From Erysipelothrix piscisicarius (GTDB lineage Bacteria; Bacillota_I; Bacilli_A; Erysipelotrichales; Erysipelotrichaceae), in the NCBI RefSeq assembly GCF_003931795.1, contig NZ_CP034234.1, forward strand, positions 310,001-374,000: a stretch of DNA of 64,000 nt. Direction: 5' to 3'. The notes beneath the pieces are model-generated. The model saw only the letters and a program-made list of their open reading frames with translations. It had not been told where the DNA came from and did no database searches. Each line of letters starts with the position of its first letter. Positions within the stretch are counted from its first letter, which is position 1. Shown here piece by piece: positions 33,382 to 63,931 of this stretch. The position numbers and the translations under genes were made by a program.

Positions 33382-33503
33382 TCCTAAATTCAAATCTCAA
33401 CCGAACCACCCAAGGTGCGGTTGTTTTTGTATAATAAAAGGAGCCCACCCGACTATGAACCGCACCCCGAATCTTGGACAAAGATGAGGAGGTGCGGTTT
33501 TTT

Positions 33504-34007
33504 ATGGCTAAGCTAACACGAAAACAAAAAATTGAAATATATGAAAAACGAAAGTTAGGACAATCAGTATGTTCATTAGTAAATGAGTATGGTATTAATA
33601 AATCAAGTATTAAATATTTGGTAAGACTTATCGATCAACATGGACCCAATGTTCTAAGACGAAACAAAAATCACTTTTATTCTCATGAATTTAAGTCAGA
33701 AGTAATAAATCGGATATTAATGGATGGAGAAAGTACAATAGCTGTCGCCATCGAACTTGGATTAAGTTCTGATGGATTGATTTACAATTGGATTAAAAAT
33801 TATAAAGAAAACGGCTATAATGTCATAGAACGGAAACGAGGTAAACCATCTATGACAAAACCAACTAAACTATTAACAGTTAATGATGAACTAAAGGCAT
33901 TGAAGAAAAAAAACAAGTATTTGGAAGCGGAGAATGAATATTTAAAAAAATTGAATGCCGTAGTGAAACAAAGGGTGGAGCGCGAAAAGAAGAAAAAACC
34001 AGAGTAG
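33504..34007 (+). CDS. IS3-family (IS150-like) transposase orfA
   Basis: This 167-residue protein has two helix-turn-helix regions (KIEIYEKRKLGQSVCSLVNE and VINRILMDGESTIAVAIELG) and a C-terminal leucine zipper (LKKKNKYLEAENEYLKKLNA). This is the IS150-group orfA layout. GAGGAGG stands 11 bases before the ATG. An A-rich stretch near the end (GAAAAGAAGAAAAAACC) is the likely slippage site for the -1 frame into orfB. Confidence 0.88.
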   Translation: MAKLTRKQKIEIYEKRKLGQSVCSLVNEYGINKSSIKYLVRLIDQHGPNVLRRNKNHFYSHEFKSEVINRILMDGESTIAVAIELGLSSDGLIYNWIKNYKENGYNVIERKRGKPSMTKPTKLLTVNDELKALKKKNKYLEAENEYLKKLNAVVKQRVEREKKKKPE

Positions 34008-34833
34008 TCTCCTTACTACGACAAAAATATCCGGACTCGCTCGATCTACTTACTACTTCTACGTTTCAAAAATTGATTTTGATACCAAAAACGACGAACT
34101 CATGCAAGAGATTATAGAAATCTATTATGATCACAAAGGACGATATGGTTATCGTAGAATTACTTTAGAACTAAATAATCGAGGAATTCGTGTAAATCAC
34201 AAGAAAGTCTTGAGACTTATGAATAAAATGGGATTACATTCAATCATAAGAAAGAAACGTAAGTATTCTTCATATAAAGGGACAGTGGGAACCATTGTTG
34301 AGAATCGAGTTCAAAGAGATTTTGAAGCTGATAAACCCAATCAAAAATGGTTTACGGATATCACTGAGTTTAATGTGCAAGGGAAGAAAATCTATCTTTC
34401 ACCAATACTTGATGCATATGGTAGATACATTGTATCTTACAACATATCTACAAGTCCTAATTTGGATCAAACTAGAGACATGCTTCACAAGGCATTTTCT
34501 TGTAACGATACGCAAGGAACAATTATTCATTCGGATAGAGGATGGCAATACCAACATCAATTTTATGTGAAAGAATTAGAAGCACATTCGATGATTAGAA
34601 GTATGTCAAGAAAGGGAAATAGTATTGATAACGGACTCATGGAGGGCTTTTTTGGGCTACTAAAATCAGAAATGTATTATGACCAAAAACATAAGTATAA
34701 AAAGGTAGAAGAATTAGTTGATGCAATTGATGAATATATCGACTCTTATAATAACAAGAGAATTAAGAGCAAACTAAAAGGACTGACCCCTGTTCAATAC
34801 AGGAATCAATCCTTAAATTTAAAAGATAATTAG
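34004..34833 (+). pseudogene. IS3-family transposase orfB with a likely N-terminal frameshift
   Basis: The catalytic region from 34102 is open and complete: GRYGYRRITLELNNRG, TDITEFN, HSDRGWQYQ and GLMEGFFGLLKSEMY give the DDE residues. Upstream, the -1 frame from orfA reads VVSLLRQKYP and then leaves frame. The expected continuation ISGLARSTYYFYVSK is in another frame from about 34034. A short deletion near 34025-34035 therefore seems to separate the two, and a full OrfAB would not be made. Confidence 0.7.
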
Positions 34834-34877
34834 CTTGTCCAAAATTTGGGGTTCAGTTCACTAAAAGGAGCTCCCAT

Positions 34878-35816
34878 ATGAAGTATAAACAATTAGATAA
34901 AAAAATGAAAGACCAAATTGATATTCTATTAAGCATCGGCTACTCTATGCGCAAGGCAGCACGTAAACTCAATATATCTCATTCTACGATTTCTAGATAT
35001 AAAAATAATGTCTATAAGAAACGAACGATTGATATTCGAGAAAAATATTCCCACCTAATCGAATATCTGCATTCTCACTATGATCCTAAAGTTCATTCGG
35101 TAGAAGTATGCTTGAGTAACTATAAACGATATCATCCATATAAACCGTGTGTTTCATCGCAGCAAGTCTATAACTGGATTAATCAAGGTAAACTTGATAT
35201 AAAACCAAATAGAATGTGCTATAAACGTCGAAAACGTAAAAAGAGAATTAGTGGAATGATGAATCACTTGAGATGGAACTTGGAAGAGAAAACAGTACTT
35301 CCAATTAGCCTTAGACCTAAATACATTGAGGAACGTAACGAGATTGGCCATCTCGAAATCGACTCTATAATCGGTAAGAAACATGAATCTGCAGCGATTA
35401 TATCCATTGTAGACCGCTGCTCAAGAATGACCTGGCTTATTAAAGCAGAATATCGATATGACTATTACACATCAAACTTAATTCGAAAATTTATTGAAGA
35501 GAATAATATAACAACGAAATCGATAACAGTAGATAATGGACTTGAATTTAAAACATTAGGGATTACAGCCAAGCGGTTGGGTGTGAAACTATATAAGTGT
35601 GATCCATACTGTTCTTTTCAACGTGGAACCAATGAACGAGCGAATGCAATCGTTAGAAGGTTTATACCAAAAGGAAAATCAATGTATGATATAGCGCAAC
35701 AATATCTTGATGATATTTGCTTCAAAATTAACTCAATGCCGCGAAAAATATTTGACTTCAAAACGGCCTATGAGATAGACTTTAATAAAAGTAAAAGTGG
35801 TGCGGTTGAGATTTGA
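34878..35816 (+). CDS. IS30-family transposase
   Basis: This 312-residue protein starts with a helix-turn-helix (IDILLSIGYSMRKAARKLNI) and has the DDE catalytic core of the IS30 family. The first Asp is in NEIGHLEIDSIIG, the second in TVDNGLEFKTLG and the Glu in FQRGTNERANAIVRRF. The frame is open and full-length, AAAGGAG precedes the ATG, and the catalytic residues are present. It could be active, though an IS150-like insertion stands between it and its leader. Confidence 0.92.
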   Translation: MKYKQLDKKMKDQIDILLSIGYSMRKAARKLNISHSTISRYKNNVYKKRTIDIREKYSHLIEYLHSHYDPKVHSVEVCLSNYKRYHPYKPCVSSQQVYNWINQGKLDIKPNRMCYKRRKRKKRISGMMNHLRWNLEEKTVLPISLRPKYIEERNEIGHLEIDSIIGKKHESAAIISIVDRCSRMTWLIKAEYRYDYYTSNLIRKFIEENNITTKSITVDNGLEFKTLGITAKRLGVKLYKCDPYCSFQRGTNERANAIVRRFIPKGKSMYDIAQQYLDDICFKINSMPRKIFDFKTAYEIDFNKSKSGAVEI

Positions 35817-35824
35817 TAAAAGAA

Positions 35825-35855
35825 AAGTAGACAAGAAAAAAAGACTTGTCTACTT
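35825..35855 (+). repeat. 31-bp target duplication of the IS30-type element, right copy
   Basis: Right partner of the repeat at 33351-33381; 30 of 31 bases agree. Confidence 0.88.
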
Positions 35856-35900
35856 TTTTTGTGTAATAATAAAATCAGAGATAAAACGGAGGTATTAATG

Positions 35901-37123
35901 ATGGGAAGACCCAAAGGTTGGATTAAATAATAAATGGACTTATGAGGATCGTATTAAAGTCGTTACACGTCATATTGATGAACATATAAGTGCTGCGAAA
36001 CTATCACAAGTCCTAAAGGAACGATTAATGGTTGGATTGATCGATTCATGCGTGATGGTAAAGAGGGTTTAAAAAACAAGAAAAAGACAGGAAATCATTT
36101 TTCTGCGCTTCATACGAGTAAATCATTAACTGAGATCGAACGACTTCAACTCGAAATTCTAAAACGAGATATTGAGATTGTACGATTAAAAAAAGGGTAC
36201 CAGGTGAAAGGAGTTGGTGTAAACAAGGAGTTCGTTACTTTAAAAGACAAGAATTCCAAATAGCACATGACTTATCTTTTAAACATCCGATTACGTTCAT
36301 TCTTAGATTTATGAATTTGAACCGATCTGGTTATTACAAGTGGTTAAAGCATAAGAATGATCTCAATATTTATGAACAAAAAAGAGCGATTCTTAGCTTT
36401 GTGATTAAAGACTGGCATCGCCGTTTTCCAAGTTATGGTTATCATGATATCGCTGCAGTCATGAGAAAGCAAAGTGATTTAGGGATTGAATTTTCCGATA
36501 ATTTAATCCACAAGTGTTGCAAGTTTTTAAATATTAAATCAAAAGTGAAACACTATTCCTATAAAAAACCTGGAACACAAAGTCGAATTTATCCTAATAT
36601 TATAAAGAATCAATGGAGGGCAACCAAACCTTTAGAAATTATTGTTTCAGATATGACACATATTCGAAACAAAGGGATTAATTATGAATGGACTTTAATG
36701 GTTGATACCTTTAACAATGAAATTATCAGTTCTGCATTATCGCGTACAACTGGTGATCCTAAGCCTTACTACAAGTGTCTCGAGGATCTCCTTGCGCTAC
36801 TTAAGGATAATAAAAAAACAGCTCCCACGATTCTTCACACAGATCAAGGAGCTGTCTACCACTCTAAAGCTTTCGCTAAAGCGCATGAAAATTATAACAT
36901 AATTAGATCTATGTCGCGAGCTGGAACACCTACAGATAATCCAATTATCGAATCATTAAATGGATGGATTAAAGCAGAAATGGCGTGTGATTATCAATAC
37001 TGGTCCGTAGATAACTTTGAAAATTTTATCGAAGAATATGTACATCATTTCAATTTTGAAAGACCTGCTTACTGTTTAAATTACAAAACCCCTATCCAAT
37101 ATAAAATGGATAAGGGTTTCTAG
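35901..37123 (+). pseudogene. IS3-family transposase (orfA broken, orfB open) of the outer element
   Basis: Comparison with the second copy shows an extra T in AAAGGTTGG just after the start (second copy AAAGGTGG) and a 10-base loss near 36011, so orfA is out of frame. orfB (36311-37123 from its first ATG, continuing upstream in frame from RQEFQIAHDLSFKHP) is open. Its catalytic residues are in VSDMTHIRN, HTDQGAVYH and NPIIESLNGWIKAEM. orfB would need the orfA frame for a full OrfAB, so this copy is probably inactive. Confidence 0.85.
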
Positions 37124-43716: not shown

Positions 43717-46700
43717 ATGAGAACGAGAATCATTAAAAGCGGATTAACAACCGTGTTAATCACAATGGTATTATTATCAGTAAGTACATCTTTTGTATCT
43801 GCGGAAGGACATCCTTCTACAAGTGTTAAAACATTAACAAATTCAGTACAAATAGATGATATGCAAGAAGGTTCGGTTCGCGTATTTAAAACAGCGAAAC
43901 CAATTCCCAACACGATTAATCGTTGGGAAATATCGATTGATGTATATTGACGCGTAAAGCGGGAACCATCAGACATTGTTTTGGTACTTGATACATCCGG
44001 AAGTATGGATCCACAAAAAAATCCACAAGGAATTGATCGGATATCAAAGGCTAAACGTGAAGCGATTCGTTTTGTGAATGAAATTTTTGAAAGAGATGAC
44101 ACCGCTCGAATTGCCCTTGTATCCTATGGAACACGGGTAAAAACAAATTCATTTCATACCAAAAATGATGCAACGCATTTAATTGATGAAATTAATAATC
44201 TTAAAGCCGAAGGAGGGACCTTTACGCAAGGGGCACTTCATGAAGCGAAAACATTATTAAATCAGAGTACGGCGCCAAATAAAACAATAATCTTGTTATC
44301 AGATGGGCAACCCACTTATCGATATCCACTCAAGGCAAAAGTAAATCAAGAATTACTTGGTTTTGAGGGAAATGTTATGGTTCAAAAACGCTATAATGGA
44401 CAACAACGTCCTTTTGATCCGGGAATTCCAAGTTCGGTGAACTATGCGATTCCCGGATATCGATTTAAATCATTACCGAATACCGATCATTTTGATTATA
44501 GCGCTCCGGTTTACGGAACGGGTAATGAGTATTATTTGGATCAACTTGGCGATGTACTATCATATGGAAATAAGAATTATTTTGTCTATATGTCTTCAGC
44601 AGACGCATCCATTGTCGAATCCAATCAAATTCATCAAGAACAAATCCATTTATACTCAATTGGATTTGATACCGATGATAAGGGAACCGAAATATTGAAG
44701 CGTATCAGTAAAGGAAATTATTATGATGCTACATCAAGCCGTGATAATCTGGATGATATCTTTAAGGAAATTTCAAACAATATTTTTTCTGCGGCGAAGG
44801 ATATTCATATTGATGACCCAATGAGCGATGCTTTTGATGTTGATATGTCACGTTTGGATGATGCACTCTTACCAATGTATGATTCAAACCAAAAACGTTT
44901 TAATGTTCGAAGTCTAGGACTGTATGATTACGATAGTGATATCCAACACTTTGGCTATCACTATGAAGTCAAAACAAATCCATTGGCAAATATAAATGAG
45001 CACAACTTCTTTGAACTAAACAAAACAACAACCATTACGTATACAGACATCAATAATCAAACCGTTAAAAAAGAGATTACAGTTCCACAGGCTAAGCCAA
45101 CACCCGTTCGACTTAAAACAGAAGTCTATAAAGCGGATAAATCACGGGATTTAAAAACAGATTATCAAGCGAATGTCGTCTTTAAATCGGATCATGATGA
45201 ACAGAAACTTCATCATGTTAGTGCAATGAATGAAAGCACGACGTCATGGTCCTTTACAGATTATGGAGCGTATGATGTTCGGATTGAGGCACTCAATGTG
45301 AAAGACGAAGCACATAATCTTAAGGATTATGATGTTGTCTACGAATATTATGAGTATGTAAATGGTGAGCGTAAACCTGTATCGCGTTTAAACATTCAGA
45401 ATCAACCGGAATCGTATGAGGTTGTGGTTAAACTTTATCAGAAACAATTAGGAACTATCACAATTGATAAGACCGTTAAACAGGGATCAAAAACAATATA
45501 TCCTGATGATATTTTTATTTTTGAAGTCTTTAATCAAGACTACAAAATTGATGAAATTCGGTTAAAAGCGGGCGAGCATAAAACACTCACCGATTTACCG
45601 CTGGGCTCCTATCGTGTTGAAGAAAAAACACTAGGAGGATTTAGTCCAAGAACCCCACAACAATCCTTTGAAATAACGTATCAAGGTCGTGATCATACCC
45701 TTCATTTCACAAACGATGTTGAGAATAGAACATCTTATGAGGTCGAACAGATTTGGGATGGCGGTCCTCTCGAAAAACCAGAGATTGAAATGATTCTTTA
45801 TCGTCAAAGTGTAACAAATCCTGAACGTGTAGATTCAAAACGCTTAACAAATGGACAAACAAAAGCCATATTTACTGATTTAGAAAAAACAGATAAAAAT
45901 GGAAATCTTTATACATACTGGGTTGAAGAAGGCGATCAAGAGGGTCTGCTTCAAGAACACCACTATACCGCTGAGCGCATCGATGCCTTCACGATCGTGA
46001 ATCACTATTATTCCCCTAAAACAACATTCACCATGACAAAAATATGGGATGGTGGTCCAGAAATTAAACCTGAAATTGAAGTTCAGCTTCTAAAAAACGG
46101 TGAAACTGTAGGCAATCCAATCATTCTTCATCACGGCGAAACAACCTATACGTGGACCGATCTTGATGAATTTGACAAAGACGGAAATATAATTAACTAT
46201 CGTGTTCGTGAAATCAACGAACCTGAAGGATATATCCAAGCACTTGATGAAACAGGCGCCATCATAACAAATCACTTTCAACCTGAAGTTCGAACCATTA
46301 ACGCTTACTTATATTGGGAACATGGACCGGATGAAAAGCCAACGGTTATTTTTGATCTCTATCAAGTTGTCGATGGTGTCGATCGCTTAACAGTAATTAA
46401 CACATATCATCCCCCTGTTCAGGAATTTACGTTAAATAAGCAATGGGTGGGGGGCGAAAAGATCCAGGCAGAAGCAACATTTACGTTGTATCAAAACGAA
46501 AAGGTCTATAATGTGGTAAAGCTTTCATACAACGATACAAATTATAAATGGCTTGTAGACGCAAAGGATCTTAAAGGAAATGCGTTTACGTATCACCTTG
46601 AAGAAACTTCCGTACCTGATGCCTTTGTATCGGAACGTATTGATGCATGGACCTTCCGTAATACCTACACATCACCTAAACGTGATGTAACCGTGACAAA

Positions 46701-47145
46701 GCATTGGATCAATGCGCCTGAAACGGTACCAACGATTCATCTTCAACTCTTAAGAAACAATGAACCAATGGGTGACCCAATTACTTTAGAGAGTGGTCAA
46801 AGAACCTATACATGGAAACATTTAGATGAGACCGATGAACAAGGCAATGCATATGACTATCGAGTTTATGAAATTGATCCCCCTAAAGGTTAGCAAGTTT
46901 CCTATAGTGAAGATGGACTGGAAATCTTTAATAAGTATCAAGAAGATGTGTCTAACATTCGGAACGAAAATCCCTCAAAGAATACACCGAATAAAAAACC
47001 AATCCTACCAGATGAAAAACCGAATCATCATGCTCTGAATCATGAGGTTCTCCCCCAAACAGGCGTTGGAAATCCAGTTCGATTGATTCCGGGAACGGTA
47101 CTGTTTGGTTTGGGTGTTATTTTATTATTGAAAAAGAAACATTAG
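43717..47145 (+). pseudogene. LPXTG surface protein with von Willebrand A and Cna-B repeats, two in-frame stops
   Basis: One frame of 1142 codons runs from the ATG after AAGGAGG to 47145. It has a signal peptide ending VSAEG and a vWA domain (residues ~85-280) with the MIDAS motif LVLDTSGSMD. A linker follows, then Cna-B-type beta repeats from about residue 579 to 1059 (IDKTVKQGS, EQIWDGGP, TKIWDGGP, NKQWVGG, TKHWINAP). The C-terminus has LPQTG at ~1112, a hydrophobic helix and KKKH, the sortase-anchoring signal. The frame is cut by TGA at 43948-43950 and TAG at 46891-46893. The first stop removes all but the first 77 residues; the second removes the anchor. One Cna-B repeat (~859-903) is half-length. 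Adhesin or pilus-tip roles are typical for this architecture. Confidence 0.92.
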
Positions 47146-49872: not shown

Positions 49873-50686
49873 CTAGAAACCCTTATCCATTTTATATTGG
49901 ATAGGGGTTTTGTAATTTAAACAGTAAGCAGGTCTTTCAAAATTGAAATAATGTACATATTCTTCGATAAAATTTTTAAAGTTATCTACGGACCAGTATT
50001 GATAATCACACGCCATTTCTGCTTTAATCCATCCATTTAATGATTTGATAATTGGATTATCTGTAGGTGTTCCAGCTCGCGACATAGATCTAATTATGTT
50101 ATAATTTTCATACGCTTTAGCGAAAGCTTTAGAGTGGTAGACAGCTCCTTGATCTGTGTGAAGAATCGTGGGAGCTGTTTTTTTTATTATCCTTAAGTAG
50201 CGCAAGGAGATCCTCGAGACACTTGTAGTAAGGCTTAGGATCACCAGTTGTACGCGATAATGCAGAACTGATAATTTCATTGTTAAAGGTATCAACCATT
50301 AAAGTCCATTCATAATTAATCCCTTTGTTTCGAATATGTGTCATATCTGAAACAATAATTTCTAAAGGTTTGGTTGCCCTCCATTGATTCTTTATAATAT
50401 TAGGATAAATTCGACTTTGTGTTCCAGGTTTTTTATAGGAATAGTGTTTAACTTTTGATTTAATATTTAAAAACTTGCAACACTTGTGGATTAAATTATC
50501 GGAAAATTCAATCCCTAAATCACTTTGCTTTCTCATGACTGCAGCGATATCATGATAACCATAACTTGGAAAACGGCGATGCCAGTCTTTAATCACAAAG
50601 CTAAGAATCGCTCTTTTTTGTTCATAAATATTGAGATCATTCTTATGCTTTAACCACTTGTAATAACCAGATCGGTTCAAATTCAT
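49873..50686 (-). pseudogene. IS3-family transposase orfB, copy 2, frameshifted
   Basis: Same protein as in copy 1 (MNLNRSGYYKWLKHKN... to ...YKTPIQYKMDKGF). A run of eight A near 50170-50178 (seven in copy 1) shifts the frame between LLALLKDNKK and TAPTILHTDQGAVYH, which separates the first catalytic Asp from the other two catalytic residues. Confidence 0.9.
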
Positions 50687-50732
50687 AAATCTAAGAATGA
50701 ACGTAATCGGATGTTTAAAGATAAGTCATGCG

Positions 50733-51107
50733 CTATTTGGAATTCTTGTCTTTTAAAGTAACGAACTCCTTGTTTACACCAACTCCTTTCACCTGGTACC
50801 CTTTTTTTAATCGTGCAATCTCAATATCTCGTTTTAGAATTTCGAGTTGAAGTCGTTCGATCTCAGTTAATGATTTACTCGTATGAAGCGCAGAAAAATG
50901 ATTTCCTGTCTTTTTCTTGTTTTTTAAACCCTCTTTACCATCACGCATGAATCGATCAATCCAACCATTAATCGTTCCTTTCGGTATTCCTGTTTCTTGT
51001 GATAGTTTCGCAGCACTTATATGTTCATCAATATGACGTGTAACGACTTTAATACGATCCTCATAAGTCCATTTATTATTTAATCCACCTTTGGGTCTTC
51101 CCATCAT
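50733..51107 (-). CDS. IS3-family transposase orfA, copy 2
   Basis: This ~124-residue protein starts MMGRPKGGLNNKWTYEDRIK, with GGAGG 6 bases upstream. It has a helix-turn-helix (AAKLSQETGIPKGTINGWID) and a C-terminal coiled coil (LTEIERLQLEILKRDIEIAR). It is intact here, unlike in copy 1. It should join orfB by -1 frameshifting near 50740 (overlap with RQEFQIAHDL). Confidence 0.87.
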   Translation of the reverse strand: MMGRPKGGLNNKWTYEDRIKVVTRHIDEHISAAKLSQETGIPKGTINGWIDRFMRDGKEGLKNKKKTGNHFSALHTSKSLTEIERLQLEILKRDIEIARLKKGYQVKGVGVNKEFVTLKDKNSK

Positions 51108-51195
51108 TAATACCTCCGTTTTATCTCTGATTTTATTATTACACAAAAAAGTAGACAAGTCTTTTTTACTTGTCTACTTTTAGTTTACTACTCCA

Positions 51196-56452: not shown

Positions 56453-57412
56453 ATGAATATTGGAACAATTGGTACAGGAATTATTGTTGAAGAATTTATT
56501 AAGTCATCACAAGATATATCAGGTGTGTCATTTAAAGCGGTTTATTCCCGCACGCAAGGCAGAGCGGATGCTTTAGCGAAGAGTTTTGGGATTACACAAA
56601 CACACACGACACTTGAGGTCTTATTTTCAGATCCGTTGGTGGATACGATTTATATTGCTTCACCCAACAGTCTTCACTATGAACAAGCATATGCTGCGTT
56701 AAAAGCCGGTAAGCATGTCATTGTAGAAAAACCTTTTGTTGAAACAGAGGAACCTGCGCAACGATTGATTCGTTATGCACAAGAGCATCATTTATTCCTC
56801 TTTGAAGCAATTTGCAATATTCATTTACCGCACTATCAATTTATCAAATCAAATTTAGAAGTTATTGGTGATATTAAGCTTGTTCAGTGTAATTTCAGTC
56901 AATATTCAAGCCGATATGATGCACTCTTAGCAGGTGAAACACCCAATGTCTTCAACCCTCATTTTTCTGGAGGTGCCTTAGCGGATATCAATATATATAA
57001 TATTCATTTTGTTGTTGGGATTTTTGGAATGCCCGATGAAGTAAAATATTATGCAAATAAACATTCTAATGGTATTGATACTTCTGGTGTTCTAATTATG
57101 AAATATCCGACCATGACCGTAGAGTGTGTTGGTGCTAAGGATAGTTTTTCTCAAAACTTTGGACAAATCCAAGGGGAAAAGGGCTATATTTATATTCCTG
57201 AAAGTGTCAGCAGCATTGAGTCTGTAAGTATTGTAACGAAAGATTCAAAAGAGATGATTAACATTCAAGATCTTCCAAGGCTTGCATATCAAGTAGAAGT
57301 ATTTGAGCGTGCGATTCGAACACAGGATTTTGAACTTCGTGATCTGTATTTAGAACAAACACTGAGTGTGGTTCGAATTGCAGAAAAGGCCCGTAAAACA
57401 GCTAATAATTAA
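56453..57412 (+). CDS. Gfo/Idh/MocA family oxidoreductase
   Basis: This ~319-residue NAD(P)-dependent dehydrogenase has an N-terminal Rossmann fold (MNIGTIGTGIIVEEFIKSS), DTIYIASPNSLHYEQAYAALK and the EKP motif GKHVIVEKPFVETEEPA. Its C-terminal substrate domain starts around GDIKLVQCNFSQYSS. Substrates in this family are sugars, inositol or biliverdin; none can be chosen here. The start at 56453 has GGGTGG upstream. Cotranscribed with mnmG, followed by a terminator. Confidence 0.92.
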   Translation: MNIGTIGTGIIVEEFIKSSQDISGVSFKAVYSRTQGRADALAKSFGITQTHTTLEVLFSDPLVDTIYIASPNSLHYEQAYAALKAGKHVIVEKPFVETEEPAQRLIRYAQEHHLFLFEAICNIHLPHYQFIKSNLEVIGDIKLVQCNFSQYSSRYDALLAGETPNVFNPHFSGGALADINIYNIHFVVGIFGMPDEVKYYANKHSNGIDTSGVLIMKYPTMTVECVGAKDSFSQNFGQIQGEKGYIYIPESVSSIESVSIVTKDSKEMINIQDLPRLAYQVEVFERAIRTQDFELRDLYLEQTLSVVRIAEKARKTANN

Positions 57413-57438
57413 AGCCAACCCAGTAGGGTTGGCTTTTC
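57411..57438 (+). terminator. Terminator after the Gfo/Idh gene
   Basis: AAAGCCAACCC and GGGTTGGCTTTT form a stem with loop AGTA, followed by T-rich sequence. An IS30 end abuts it. Confidence 0.88.
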
Positions 57439-57475: not shown

Positions 57476-57584
57476 GATTTCTTATTGAGTAGACAACACT
57501 TTGTTGTAAATCGAAAGACCTCTTTACAATCCAAGGATGTATATGTAAAAATTTAAAACGCTATTAAATGTGGAGGGGGATTTA

Positions 57585-60005
57585 ATGATACGAAAAATTG
57601 GTATATTTGTAATGTTTATTTTACTTTTTGGTATTTTTCGAACAGAACATGTTTCTGCGGAAGTAGGTTTTGATTTTCAAAATCTAAATCAAGGAACTGA
57701 TGTAATGCTACGCGGTCTTTGTCATCGCGCTAATACCTGTGTATCAGGTTCTAAAACTTACACAATTAATTGGTTCGGGATGGAGAGCGGTGATCAGCCC
57801 ATCTCCTTAACAATGCAAGAGGAGTATAATGATGATACCTCCATTGAAATTGGTAAGATTACAAATCTTACAAAAGATATAAAGTCAATTACGATTGATA
57901 ATCTAGTCCTTCAAGATGCATTCAACTTTAATGCTGATGGAGGCAATCTTTATCATAAAGTTTATGGCTTTAAAATTGATAAAGAAACGCCAGATGCTCT
58001 TGAATATAGAGTGATTCAGAATCAAAATATCATTAATATTGTGCGAATTAAAAATCAAACAATTAAATTCTCGGTGGTCCGGGATGGACCCATCAATGGT
58101 GTGCGATCGCTTCCTTTTGTCTTAACAAAAAATGGTGAGCAATCGAAAAGTCATCGCACTACATTTTACACACGTTCTTCAAGTCAACATTATTCGTTTA
58201 TTACAACCAAGTATGACGATAAGAATCGACCTTATACATTTGATATTATTACCGATGGTGATGATAGGGTAAAAATTGAAAAAAAGGTAATCAATGAAAA
58301 CGAATTTGAATTTCGTATTCGTCAAGATATTACGAAAGAAATTCCTTTAAAAGGCCATAATACAAGTGGTCTTACGGGAGAAGTCGTTTTTATTACTGAT
58401 AACCAAAAAGAATTAACAGGTATTGTTAAAGACGGGAATGTGGTATTTGAGAATATTAGACATGAAGACTTGAATACATTTACTCGAATGAAACGATACA
58501 ATTTGAATGATGCAAGCGTAGAACTTAATATCAGAGAAGATCGGTTAAAAGAAATTTCTGAAATTGCAGTCGAGCGATTCATTGACAAAACATTTAATGT
58601 GGAGTGGGGACCTAATATATTGGCCTATACAGGAGCCAAGGAAACAGATACGATTGATATTCACCTCTTTGAAGGAAATCAAGCCCCCGATTTCAAAAAA
58701 GCCGTCGCCTTTAATCAGTCGGAAGTAACCTTCAAGGTAAATCCTCGTAAAGAAACGACATTCTCCGTTGATGATGGGTTTGTAAGTGTCGCAAATGATT
58801 TGAAAATTTATATCGATCGTGTGATTCAGCCGCTTCAGATTGACATTCAGAAGGCATATAAGCCGAAAAAAGATGACGATTTGGATATCCAAGTAGAAAT
58901 ATTAAGTCCGCCTCGTGCAACAGGCAAAATTGATTTGAACGAACTGTTGGGTGTGGATGGATTTATCATTCATGAAACTCCGAAGCCTTCAATAGAACCT
59001 GATCGTGAGGTCATGCTATCGGTAGACGGTTTTTTTATTCACGATACTCTCGATGAACCTAAAAATCGTTTACGACCCGATCCGGTATTTCTTGATGGAT
59101 ATGGTATCGAAGACGTTCAAAATCACGAATACATCAGTGGAATGGAAGCCATTATGCAGAAGGAAAGGATGAAGCAAAAATATTTAGAAGATGTTTTAGA
59201 GCAAGATCGGAAAAATCGCATTGCTTACGAACTCAGTACGAAGGAATATGAGGCACACCTCAACCCCATAATTTTAGAGAATCATTTTGATGGATTTCCA
59301 ATTGAACTACAAGAAACAGCCTTACACGAAAATCTTAATCCAATAATAGAAGTTGGAGTGTTTAATGATAATCAGCAGATTTTTAGTATGGTAGATGTTG
59401 AAGGAGAACCTATAAAAGGGGATATCCTTCCACCTTATTTAGAAGGAGAGGAAGTTCCTGAACATGCATTCGACCACACTGAAAGGGATGCGGCATCGAA
59501 CTTTTTGAGTATCATTGCAACAAAAAAACGTGTGGAATTGGAGCGAATTTTACTTCAAGATATTGAAAATCGGAAACAGCACGAACGTGAAACAAATAAT
59601 ATATTAGACGCATTGCTACGTAGGCAACCAGACAGTCCCAACGTGATTGAACCACTTGAATATTATGCAATAATTATGTCAAATCCAATTATCCAACAAA
59701 AAGACGGCGTTTCAAAAATAACAACAGAACAACAATCATCAAATTTGGTGAGAGATAAAAGTATAAAAACCACACATACTCCAAAAGAAAAGACCGAAGA
59801 GAGTCATGCAATCAAAAGTCATTACAGTACCATTAAACAAAAGTTTGATGAGAAAACGATTGCCCGGGTAATAAACAAGGACACAGATGGCGTTCTTCCT
59901 AAGACCGGAAAACAAAAACACAGTAATAAATGGGGAATAATCCTGATATTAATGGGAGTTTGTGTATTATTACCGAAAAGGCATAAAAATAGAATTGTTA
60001 ATTAG
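57585..60005 (+). CDS. LPXTG-anchored surface protein of unknown function
   Basis: This 806-residue protein starts after GGAGGGGG with a signal peptide (MIRKIGIFVMFILLFGIF, cleavage near VSAEVG). It ends with LPKTG, a hydrophobic helix and KRHKNRIVN, the sortase signal. The N-terminal ~300 residues contain CHRANTCVSG (a possible disulfide pair) and look like beta-rich domains. I do not recognise them. In the middle (~residues 450-510) short repeats LLGVDGFIIHET, MLSVDGFFIHDT and VFLDGYGIED occur. The region ~515-700 is charged and helical (EAIMQKERMKQKYLEDVLEQ). No enzyme motif is seen. It stands alone between terminators and just upstream of rsmG. Surface localisation is strongly supported; the function is unknown. 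Confidence 0.88.
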   Translation: MIRKIGIFVMFILLFGIFRTEHVSAEVGFDFQNLNQGTDVMLRGLCHRANTCVSGSKTYTINWFGMESGDQPISLTMQEEYNDDTSIEIGKITNLTKDIKSITIDNLVLQDAFNFNADGGNLYHKVYGFKIDKETPDALEYRVIQNQNIINIVRIKNQTIKFSVVRDGPINGVRSLPFVLTKNGEQSKSHRTTFYTRSSSQHYSFITTKYDDKNRPYTFDIITDGDDRVKIEKKVINENEFEFRIRQDITKEIPLKGHNTSGLTGEVVFITDNQKELTGIVKDGNVVFENIRHEDLNTFTRMKRYNLNDASVELNIREDRLKEISEIAVERFIDKTFNVEWGPNILAYTGAKETDTIDIHLFEGNQAPDFKKAVAFNQSEVTFKVNPRKETTFSVDDGFVSVANDLKIYIDRVIQPLQIDIQKAYKPKKDDDLDIQVEILSPPRATGKIDLNELLGVDGFIIHETPKPSIEPDREVMLSVDGFFIHDTLDEPKNRLRPDPVFLDGYGIEDVQNHEYISGMEAIMQKERMKQKYLEDVLEQDRKNRIAYELSTKEYEAHLNPIILENHFDGFPIELQETALHENLNPIIEVGVFNDNQQIFSMVDVEGEPIKGDILPPYLEGEEVPEHAFDHTERDAASNFLSIIATKKRVELERILLQDIENRKQHERETNNILDALLRRQPDSPNVIEPLEYYAIIMSNPIIQQKDGVSKITTEQQSSNLVRDKSIKTTHTPKEKTEESHAIKSHYSTIKQKFDEKTIARVINKDTDGVLPKTGKQKHSNKWGIILILMGVCVLLPKRHKNRIVN

Positions 60006-63415: not shown

Positions 63416-63931
63416 ATGAAACAAGAACGACAAAAGGTGTTGGATCAGTCTAATCGGAAGAACCAACGTCTACTGAAAATCGCAGTCGTATTATTTTTAA
63501 TTGTTCTGGGACTTCTAGTCTATCAAAAGTCACAAGTTAACGATCATACTAATCAAGATGATTCACTTGTTCAAAATATATCGATTCCAGTCAATGCATT
63601 GGGTGATGTCTTGAATGAAAATGCAGATGCATTTTACCAAAATCTTGTAAAATCTGAGACCATTCGTTCCTATCATCTAAATCCAATTGATCTGTGTGAG
63701 AGCGATAATCAAAAGATTCAATCTCAAATTTATGTGGTAAACATTGAAAAAGAAAATCATGAAACCAAGGAAAAAGAATACAAACCGGAGTACTTATTAT
63801 CCGGAGCGGTAGAAATTGTGTATGATAATAATGAGGTAAAGGGATACAGACGATGGATTGAGCGCTCTGAAACAATTGAAGGGATTCATGAATTCGTTAA
63901 AGCACGTCAATTAACGTGCTCTATTCCGTAA
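63416..63931 (+). CDS. Membrane-anchored protein of unknown function
   Basis: This 171-residue protein has a basic cytoplasmic N-terminus (~20 residues), one membrane helix (LLKIAVVLFLIVLGLLVYQ, ~21-40) and a polar outer domain with two Cys (PIDLCESDN and the last residues RQLTCSIP), possibly a disulfide. GAGGTGA precedes the ATG. I do not recognise the family. It is followed within 25 bases by a nucleoside-hydrolase-like gene. Confidence 0.75.
   Translation: MKQERQKVLDQSNRKNQRLLKIAVVLFLIVLGLLVYQKSQVNDHTNQDDSLVQNISIPVNALGDVLNENADAFYQNLVKSETIRSYHLNPIDLCESDNQKIQSQIYVVNIEKENHETKEKEYKPEYLLSGAVEIVYDNNEVKGYRRWIERSETIEGIHEFVKARQLTCSIP

Follow-up and report, generated by a model that had tools for sequence, protein, structure and literature searches.

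The window analysed here, a stretch of 64,000 nucleotides, belongs to a small Erysipelothrix genome (G000, 1.72 Mb) in which insertion sequences and decayed genes occur. These features would fit 15TAL0474, an E. piscisicarius isolate from fish for which 286 pseudogenes and a proteome smaller than all others have been described (PMC7873064). The window genome was compared with 12 other Erysipelothrix genomes, three of which (G002, G009, and G005, the last being E. tonsillarum DSM 14972) hold an ortholog of the gene considered below. This gene occupies positions 57585 to 60005 and encodes an 806-residue LPXTG surface protein; the gene itself and all the features described within and directly upstream of it lie on the forward (+) strand. 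The first-pass annotation had called the gene intact and had placed it next to the chromosome partition genes, and both statements were borne out: the open reading frame is uninterrupted, starts with ATG, and is preceded by a strong ribosome-binding site (GGAGGGGG, 57572-57579), and the rsmG-noc-soj-parB genes indeed stand beside it. An alternative, longer start at a GTG (57570) was rejected, as it overlaps the ribosome-binding site and the sequence MIRK opens all the orthologs. Elsewhere in the window, several transposase genes, some of them broken, are found at 33474-37123 and 49873-51158, the latter insertion falling in the phosphoglycerate mutase region, which is intact in G002. Downstream of parB lies a gene for a 171-residue predicted membrane protein (63416-63931), which is fast-evolving (66% identity to G009 and 50% to E. 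tonsillarum), while parB itself is not.

The surface gene has a conserved promoter region of its own and is separated from the upstream Gfo/Idh gene by the intrinsic terminator of the latter (57411-57436; an 11-bp stem followed by a T-run). Alignment of the upstream regions of the four genomes revealed a dyad, TTGTAAAT-N10-CTTTACAA (57504-57529), a putative operator/promoter element lying over the presumed -35 box, for which a TTTACA sequence is found at 57523. The dyad, TTGTA-N16-TACAA (TTGTANAT-N10-CTTTACAA), is kept in every one of these genomes, that of E. tonsillarum included. A search for a regulon turned up no further exact match in them, and since each of the four thus has the exact pattern only once, control through the dyad may be specific to this gene. 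G009 carries a degenerate copy of the same dyad upstream of a TypA-like gene.

The signal peptide comprises residues 1 to 25 (57585-57659), with a hydrophobic stretch, MIRKIGIFVMFILLFGIF, and a cleavage-like VSA, after which cleavage is predicted (VSA/EV); the peptide was judged by eye, and it is conserved in all four orthologs. At the other end, from residue 771 (59895-60002), the protein carries a sortase motif, a hydrophobic segment, and a basic tail (LPKTG...WGIILILMGVCVLLPKRHKNR, ending in KRHKNR), an arrangement conserved in G002 and G009. The TIGR01167 model scored 17.5 bits on this anchor in the genome search (cut-off, 15.9) and 12.5 bits in the whole-protein scan. Both elements had been noted in the first-pass annotation. 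The window genome has one sortase gene (PF04203, 81 bits), and G002, G009, and G005 have only one each. The export signal and the LPXTG anchor, together with the presence of a sortase, lend good support to the predicted surface location of the protein.

At the sequence level, neither Pfam nor NCBIfam gave a match to the 806-residue protein above the cut-off, and sequence and profile searches of the PDB yielded nothing significant. Fragment-scan matches to PF02876 beta-grasp (E = 0.0025), Kre9_KNH (E = 0.0045), Cas9 PI, and DUF4992 were not taken as homology, because all fell below the cut-off and the G002 equivalent of the PF02876 fragment matched nothing. Cna_B (PF05738) did not match either the fragments (up to E = 10) or the whole protein (up to E = 1), whereas the same scan of RspC, a Cna-B/vWA adhesin encoded nearby, gave 261 bits and eight Cna_B stretches. 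Thus, no clear homology to a described adhesin family was found in the Pfam, NCBIfam, and PDB searches, and the earlier statement that no domain could be assigned holds for sequence comparison; it does not hold for the predicted structure, in which residues 248 to 416 form two Ig-like beta-domains.

These two domains, residues 248 to 331 (58326-58577; pLDDT of about 80 to 90) and 332 to 416 (58578-58832; pLDDT of about 80 to 88), were compared with known structures by VIA-align and Foldseek. The first showed Z scores of about 5 to 6 to pilin domains, e.g., SpaD (4hss) and SpaA (3htl), and the second 6.3 to PitA (7vcr), 5.9 to Cna B1 (1d2o), and about 5.3 to FN3 domains. The best Foldseek match was Cna B1B2 (1d2p, E = 1e-4), followed by the pilins PitA and RrgB. 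With Z scores of 5.8 to 6.3 to Cna B and pilins and FN3 domains close behind, these are middling matches, and an hhalign comparison of the stalk with genuine Cna-B repeats, nine in number and taken from the neighbouring adhesins, was weak and only suggestive (probability, 9%; P = 0.0036). The models therefore predict a generic Ig-like stalk that leans toward Cna-B. N-terminal to it lies a beta-rich head of unassigned fold (residues 26 to 247; 57660-58325), in which strands are predicted at a pLDDT of mostly about 20 to 50 and which is among the better-conserved parts of the ectodomain (71% and 57% identity). For the tandem DEv-IgG ligand-binding domains of MSCRAMM adhesins (dock-lock-latch N2N3), the comparison comes down to this low-confidence model of the head. 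The cysteine pair in CHRANTCVSG that had been pointed out near the N terminus corresponds to an invariant loop, Cys46 to Cys52 (57720-57740). None of the four orthologs has another cysteine beyond its signal peptide and membrane segment, so a disulfide between these two is likely.

C-terminal to the stalk we found a repeat region that the first-pass annotation had described in part. Its short VDGFxIH repeats are real, but they belong to a more extensive pattern, [hydrophobic][DENQ][GS]xx[IVM], with six copies between residues 457 and 624 compared with 0.52 expected and a maximum of 4 in 2,000 shuffles. The motifs, of the form hhhDGxxI, fall into two sets of three, VDGFII (457), VDGFFI (480), and LDGYGI (503) at 58953-59108 and FDGFPI (568), VEGEPI (605), and LEGEEV (619) at 59286-59456, and each set is followed by a long helix that ends in LxQDxxNRxxxE. 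The first helix (residues 516 to 558; 59130-59258) was modelled at a pLDDT of 72 to 88, and its LEQDRKNRxAYE is near-invariant in the orthologs; the second (residues 631 to 679; 59475-59621), with LLQDIENRxxHE, is likewise seen in the model. The charged, helical C-terminal third proposed earlier was thus roughly right. When the two units were aligned with each other, only 2 to 8 of 500 shuffles reached their score, whichever ortholog was used (these are not independent of one another), and the second helix unit is likely a duplicate of the first. In the model of the whole region, the two helices stood out at a pLDDT of about 70 to 92 and the rest was of low confidence (pTM, 0.20), so that outside the helices the region is probably disordered. 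It is also fast-evolving (52% and 36% identity), and the tail that would span the wall (residues 701 to 768; 59685-59888), hypervariable and only 24% identical to that of the G002 ortholog, is the least conserved part of the protein.

A survey of the 12 other Erysipelothrix genomes gave orthologs in conserved synteny in the three named above, intact in two of them. The G002 and G009 proteins have 818 residues and are 59% identical to that of the window (in G002 over 805 residues), while the E. tonsillarum ortholog is 46% identical and is interrupted before the anchor by a frameshift that splits a 730-residue open reading frame from one of 96 residues with LPNTG. This could be a sequencing error; taken at face value, it suggests that the protein may be dispensable in E. 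tonsillarum. In the other nine genomes there is no gene at the site, and Gfo/Idh runs directly into rsmG. The four gene-bearing genomes form a close clade, with rsmG 94 to 100% identical to that of the window versus 78% or less in the rest. Since Gfo/Idh abuts rsmG in all nine genomes lacking the gene, the distribution is most simply explained by a single lineage-specific insertion in the ancestor of the four. Outside the genus, no relatives were found in 395 class-level genomes or in plasmids, phages, and viral contigs; a match in G046 (E = 9e-4) was spurious, being a reading with two stops across unrelated genes. In G012 (L067:3256-6090), genes for a response regulator, a sensor kinase-like protein, and a small membrane protein lie between Gfo/Idh and mnmG, and hence the interval has received insertions in other members of the genus as well. 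The site of ER1, a diagnostic primer used for E. rhusiopathiae, is present in G002 and G009 and absent from the window genome. The sequence of ER1 appears in PMC6616368.

The divergence of the surface protein from its G002 ortholog stands out against that of the adjacent housekeeping genes mnmG, rsmG, noc, soj, and parB, which are 95 to 100% identical (adjacent housekeeping genes as a whole, 93 to 100%). The dN/dS of the surface gene is about 0.18 to 0.24 (0.19 against G002 and 0.24 for G002 versus G009), and selection on this fast-evolving sequence is therefore purifying on average. The neighbouring RspC-type adhesin is also strongly divergent from its G002 counterpart (75% identity; dS, 1.4), to an extent comparable in dS to the surface gene, and fast divergence is thus usual for surface genes here. 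When G002 and G009 were compared with each other, they turned out to be mostly 86 to 95% identical upstream and mostly 98 to 100% identical from the boundary of the TypA-like and surface genes on, over the about 24 kb of downstream sequence that the comparison covered (G002:C1 about 117000-141900; G009:C1 about 1855000-1879400). This jump marks a recent exchange of a long tract of DNA between two Erysipelothrix species, with the surface-gene insertion at its edge. In G002 (L045:11567-13351) and G009 (L046:7250-9034), the TypA/BipA-like translational GTPase gene (594 residues) separates Gfo/Idh from the surface gene; neither the window nor E. tonsillarum has it at this position.

The gene order of G002 allowed the ortholog to be matched with a published locus. 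Two genes served as reference points, guaC, which is ERH_1690 (PMC4968806), and rspC, which is ERH_1687 (PMC9120913). Counting along G002 gives fur (1689), an XRE regulator (1688), RspC (1687), metG (1686), phosphoglycerate mutase (1685), an ABC permease (1684) and ABC ATPase (1683), GntR (1682), mnmG (1681), Gfo/Idh (1680), the TypA-like gene (1679), and the surface gene (1678). As the count lands on 1678, the E. rhusiopathiae ortholog is most likely ERH_1678 of Fujisawa. ERH_1687 itself, suggested by its "LPXTG" label, was rejected as the ortholog, as it is RspC, a Cna-B/vWA protein. ERH_1678, annotated as a hypothetical protein, has been detected by mass spectrometry with 18 unique peptides and a coverage of 24.9% (PMC4968806), which over 818 residues comes to 11 residues per peptide and fits the length of the ortholog. 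The match is further supported by its immediate neighbours: the genes one step away would not be named hypothetical, and 18 peptides at a coverage of 24.9% call for a longer protein than that of rsmG. The description of the protein as unrecognised thus stands in that it is uncharacterised, but its ortholog, almost certainly ERH_1678, has already been seen by proteomics. In the attenuated strain HX130709a, the ratio of ERH_1678 to that in HX130709 was 0.277 (about 3.6-fold down), with the mRNA also decreased, and the same table gives 0.248 for SpaA (PMC4968806). HX130709a had undergone 70 acriflavine passages, grew more slowly, and was harvested at a different time, and one of the three replicates was discarded. 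With that number of passages, and with about 170 proteins changed besides growth, the reduction of ERH_1678 is an association and not a cause.

Taken together, these data incline us to regard the protein as a sortase-anchored, multi-domain surface protein of the adhesin type that is restricted to the E. rhusiopathiae-tonsillarum lineage. Its signal peptide would direct export, after which the single sortase would join LPKTG covalently to peptidoglycan. The two Ig-like stalk domains would hold the beta-rich head and its one disulfide loop outward, and the largely disordered, acidic linker, with its two modules of three hhhDGxxI motifs and one long helix each, would span the wall and may offer further short-motif binding sites. 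The head, the DG motifs, or both may bind a putative host ligand, and the earlier proposal of a new factor in host contact is a plausible one. A bolder version of the same reading, which we consider doubtful, is that the duplicated module with its L.QD..NR...E helix signature is an undescribed ligand-binding repeat, that the head has a new adhesin fold found only in the pathogenic Erysipelothrix lineage, and that the gene is under the control of an operator of its own.

Instead of mediating adhesion, the protein could serve immune evasion by capturing a soluble host protein (a plasma protein, an immunoglobulin, or a complement factor) through its DG motifs and helices, with the head acting as a cap. 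The layout, in which a disordered, acidic stretch carries six short motifs along with long charged helices, resembles that of the repeat regions of plasma-protein-binding proteins of Gram-positive bacteria, and the fast evolution of the region would fit as well; however, the DG motif matches no described binding repeat in the Pfam, NCBIfam, and PDB searches, and the better conservation of the N-terminal beta-region than of the repeats suggests that the main function lies in the head. We therefore hold this to be possible, though rather unlikely. A housekeeping role in the cell wall of the lineage, as a spacer or in the organisation of the wall or capsule, and with no part in host contact, seems distinctly improbable: the gene is absent from most of the genus, evolves far faster than the neighbouring core genes, and owes its place to insertion between unrelated genes, being set off by a terminator upstream and a promoter region of its own, even if it adjoins the chromosome partition genes, is present in a single copy, is intact in all but one of the four species having it, and belongs to no known adhesin family. 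The resemblance of the stalk to Cna B1B2 and to the pilins PitA and RrgB among the best Foldseek matches might also point to a pilus subunit of the Cna-B/pilin type. This is highly improbable, given that each of the four genomes has just one sortase gene, that the gene stands alone, with a pilin partner and a pilus sortase absent from the locus, and that Pfam gives no Cna_B or SpaA match in the protein where the same scan finds the eight Cna_B stretches of RspC.

Expression of the E. rhusiopathiae ortholog, and its place among the most strongly reduced proteins of the attenuated strain (0.277), make the protein a reasonable candidate for diagnostics or subunit-vaccine work, as well as for binding tests. 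SpaA, with 0.248 in the same comparison, is the main protective antigen. If exposed at the surface as predicted, the protein is a lineage-specific antigen candidate that the published lists of Erysipelothrix surface proteins have missed, ERH_1678 being absent from all three (PMC9120913, PMC9637936, and PMC7083082). The surface gene also marks the edge of the tract exchanged between two species.

Among known systems, the fibronectin-binding repeat proteins (tandem beta-zipper) share with this protein only the idea of repeated short motifs in a disordered stalk; their repeats presumably differ from the DG region in motif sequence, in spacing, and with regard to the intervening long helices. The EF2685/EF0750 family (NF053819) has a similar anchor region (residues 733 to 801), but the match is limited to the anchor and reaches 17.4 bits against a cut-off of 47. 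RspC and other Cna-B MSCRAMM-like adhesins share the layout of a head, an Ig-like stalk, and an LPXTG anchor; by Pfam, however, the surface protein has neither vWA nor Cna_B, and by inspection the DG-motif/helix region is missing in RspC. RspC is intact in G002 (1,466 residues), where it lies about 11 kb from the surface gene, and its counterpart in the window, a vWA/Cna-B adhesin at 43981-46893, has neither an in-frame signal-peptide start nor an LPXTG end, in agreement with its earlier description as decayed. Although the window allele differs from the G002 ortholog at 41% of sites and has no TypA-like gene upstream, ERH_1678 corresponds to the same locus by gene-order count and agrees with the ortholog in length and peptide coverage.
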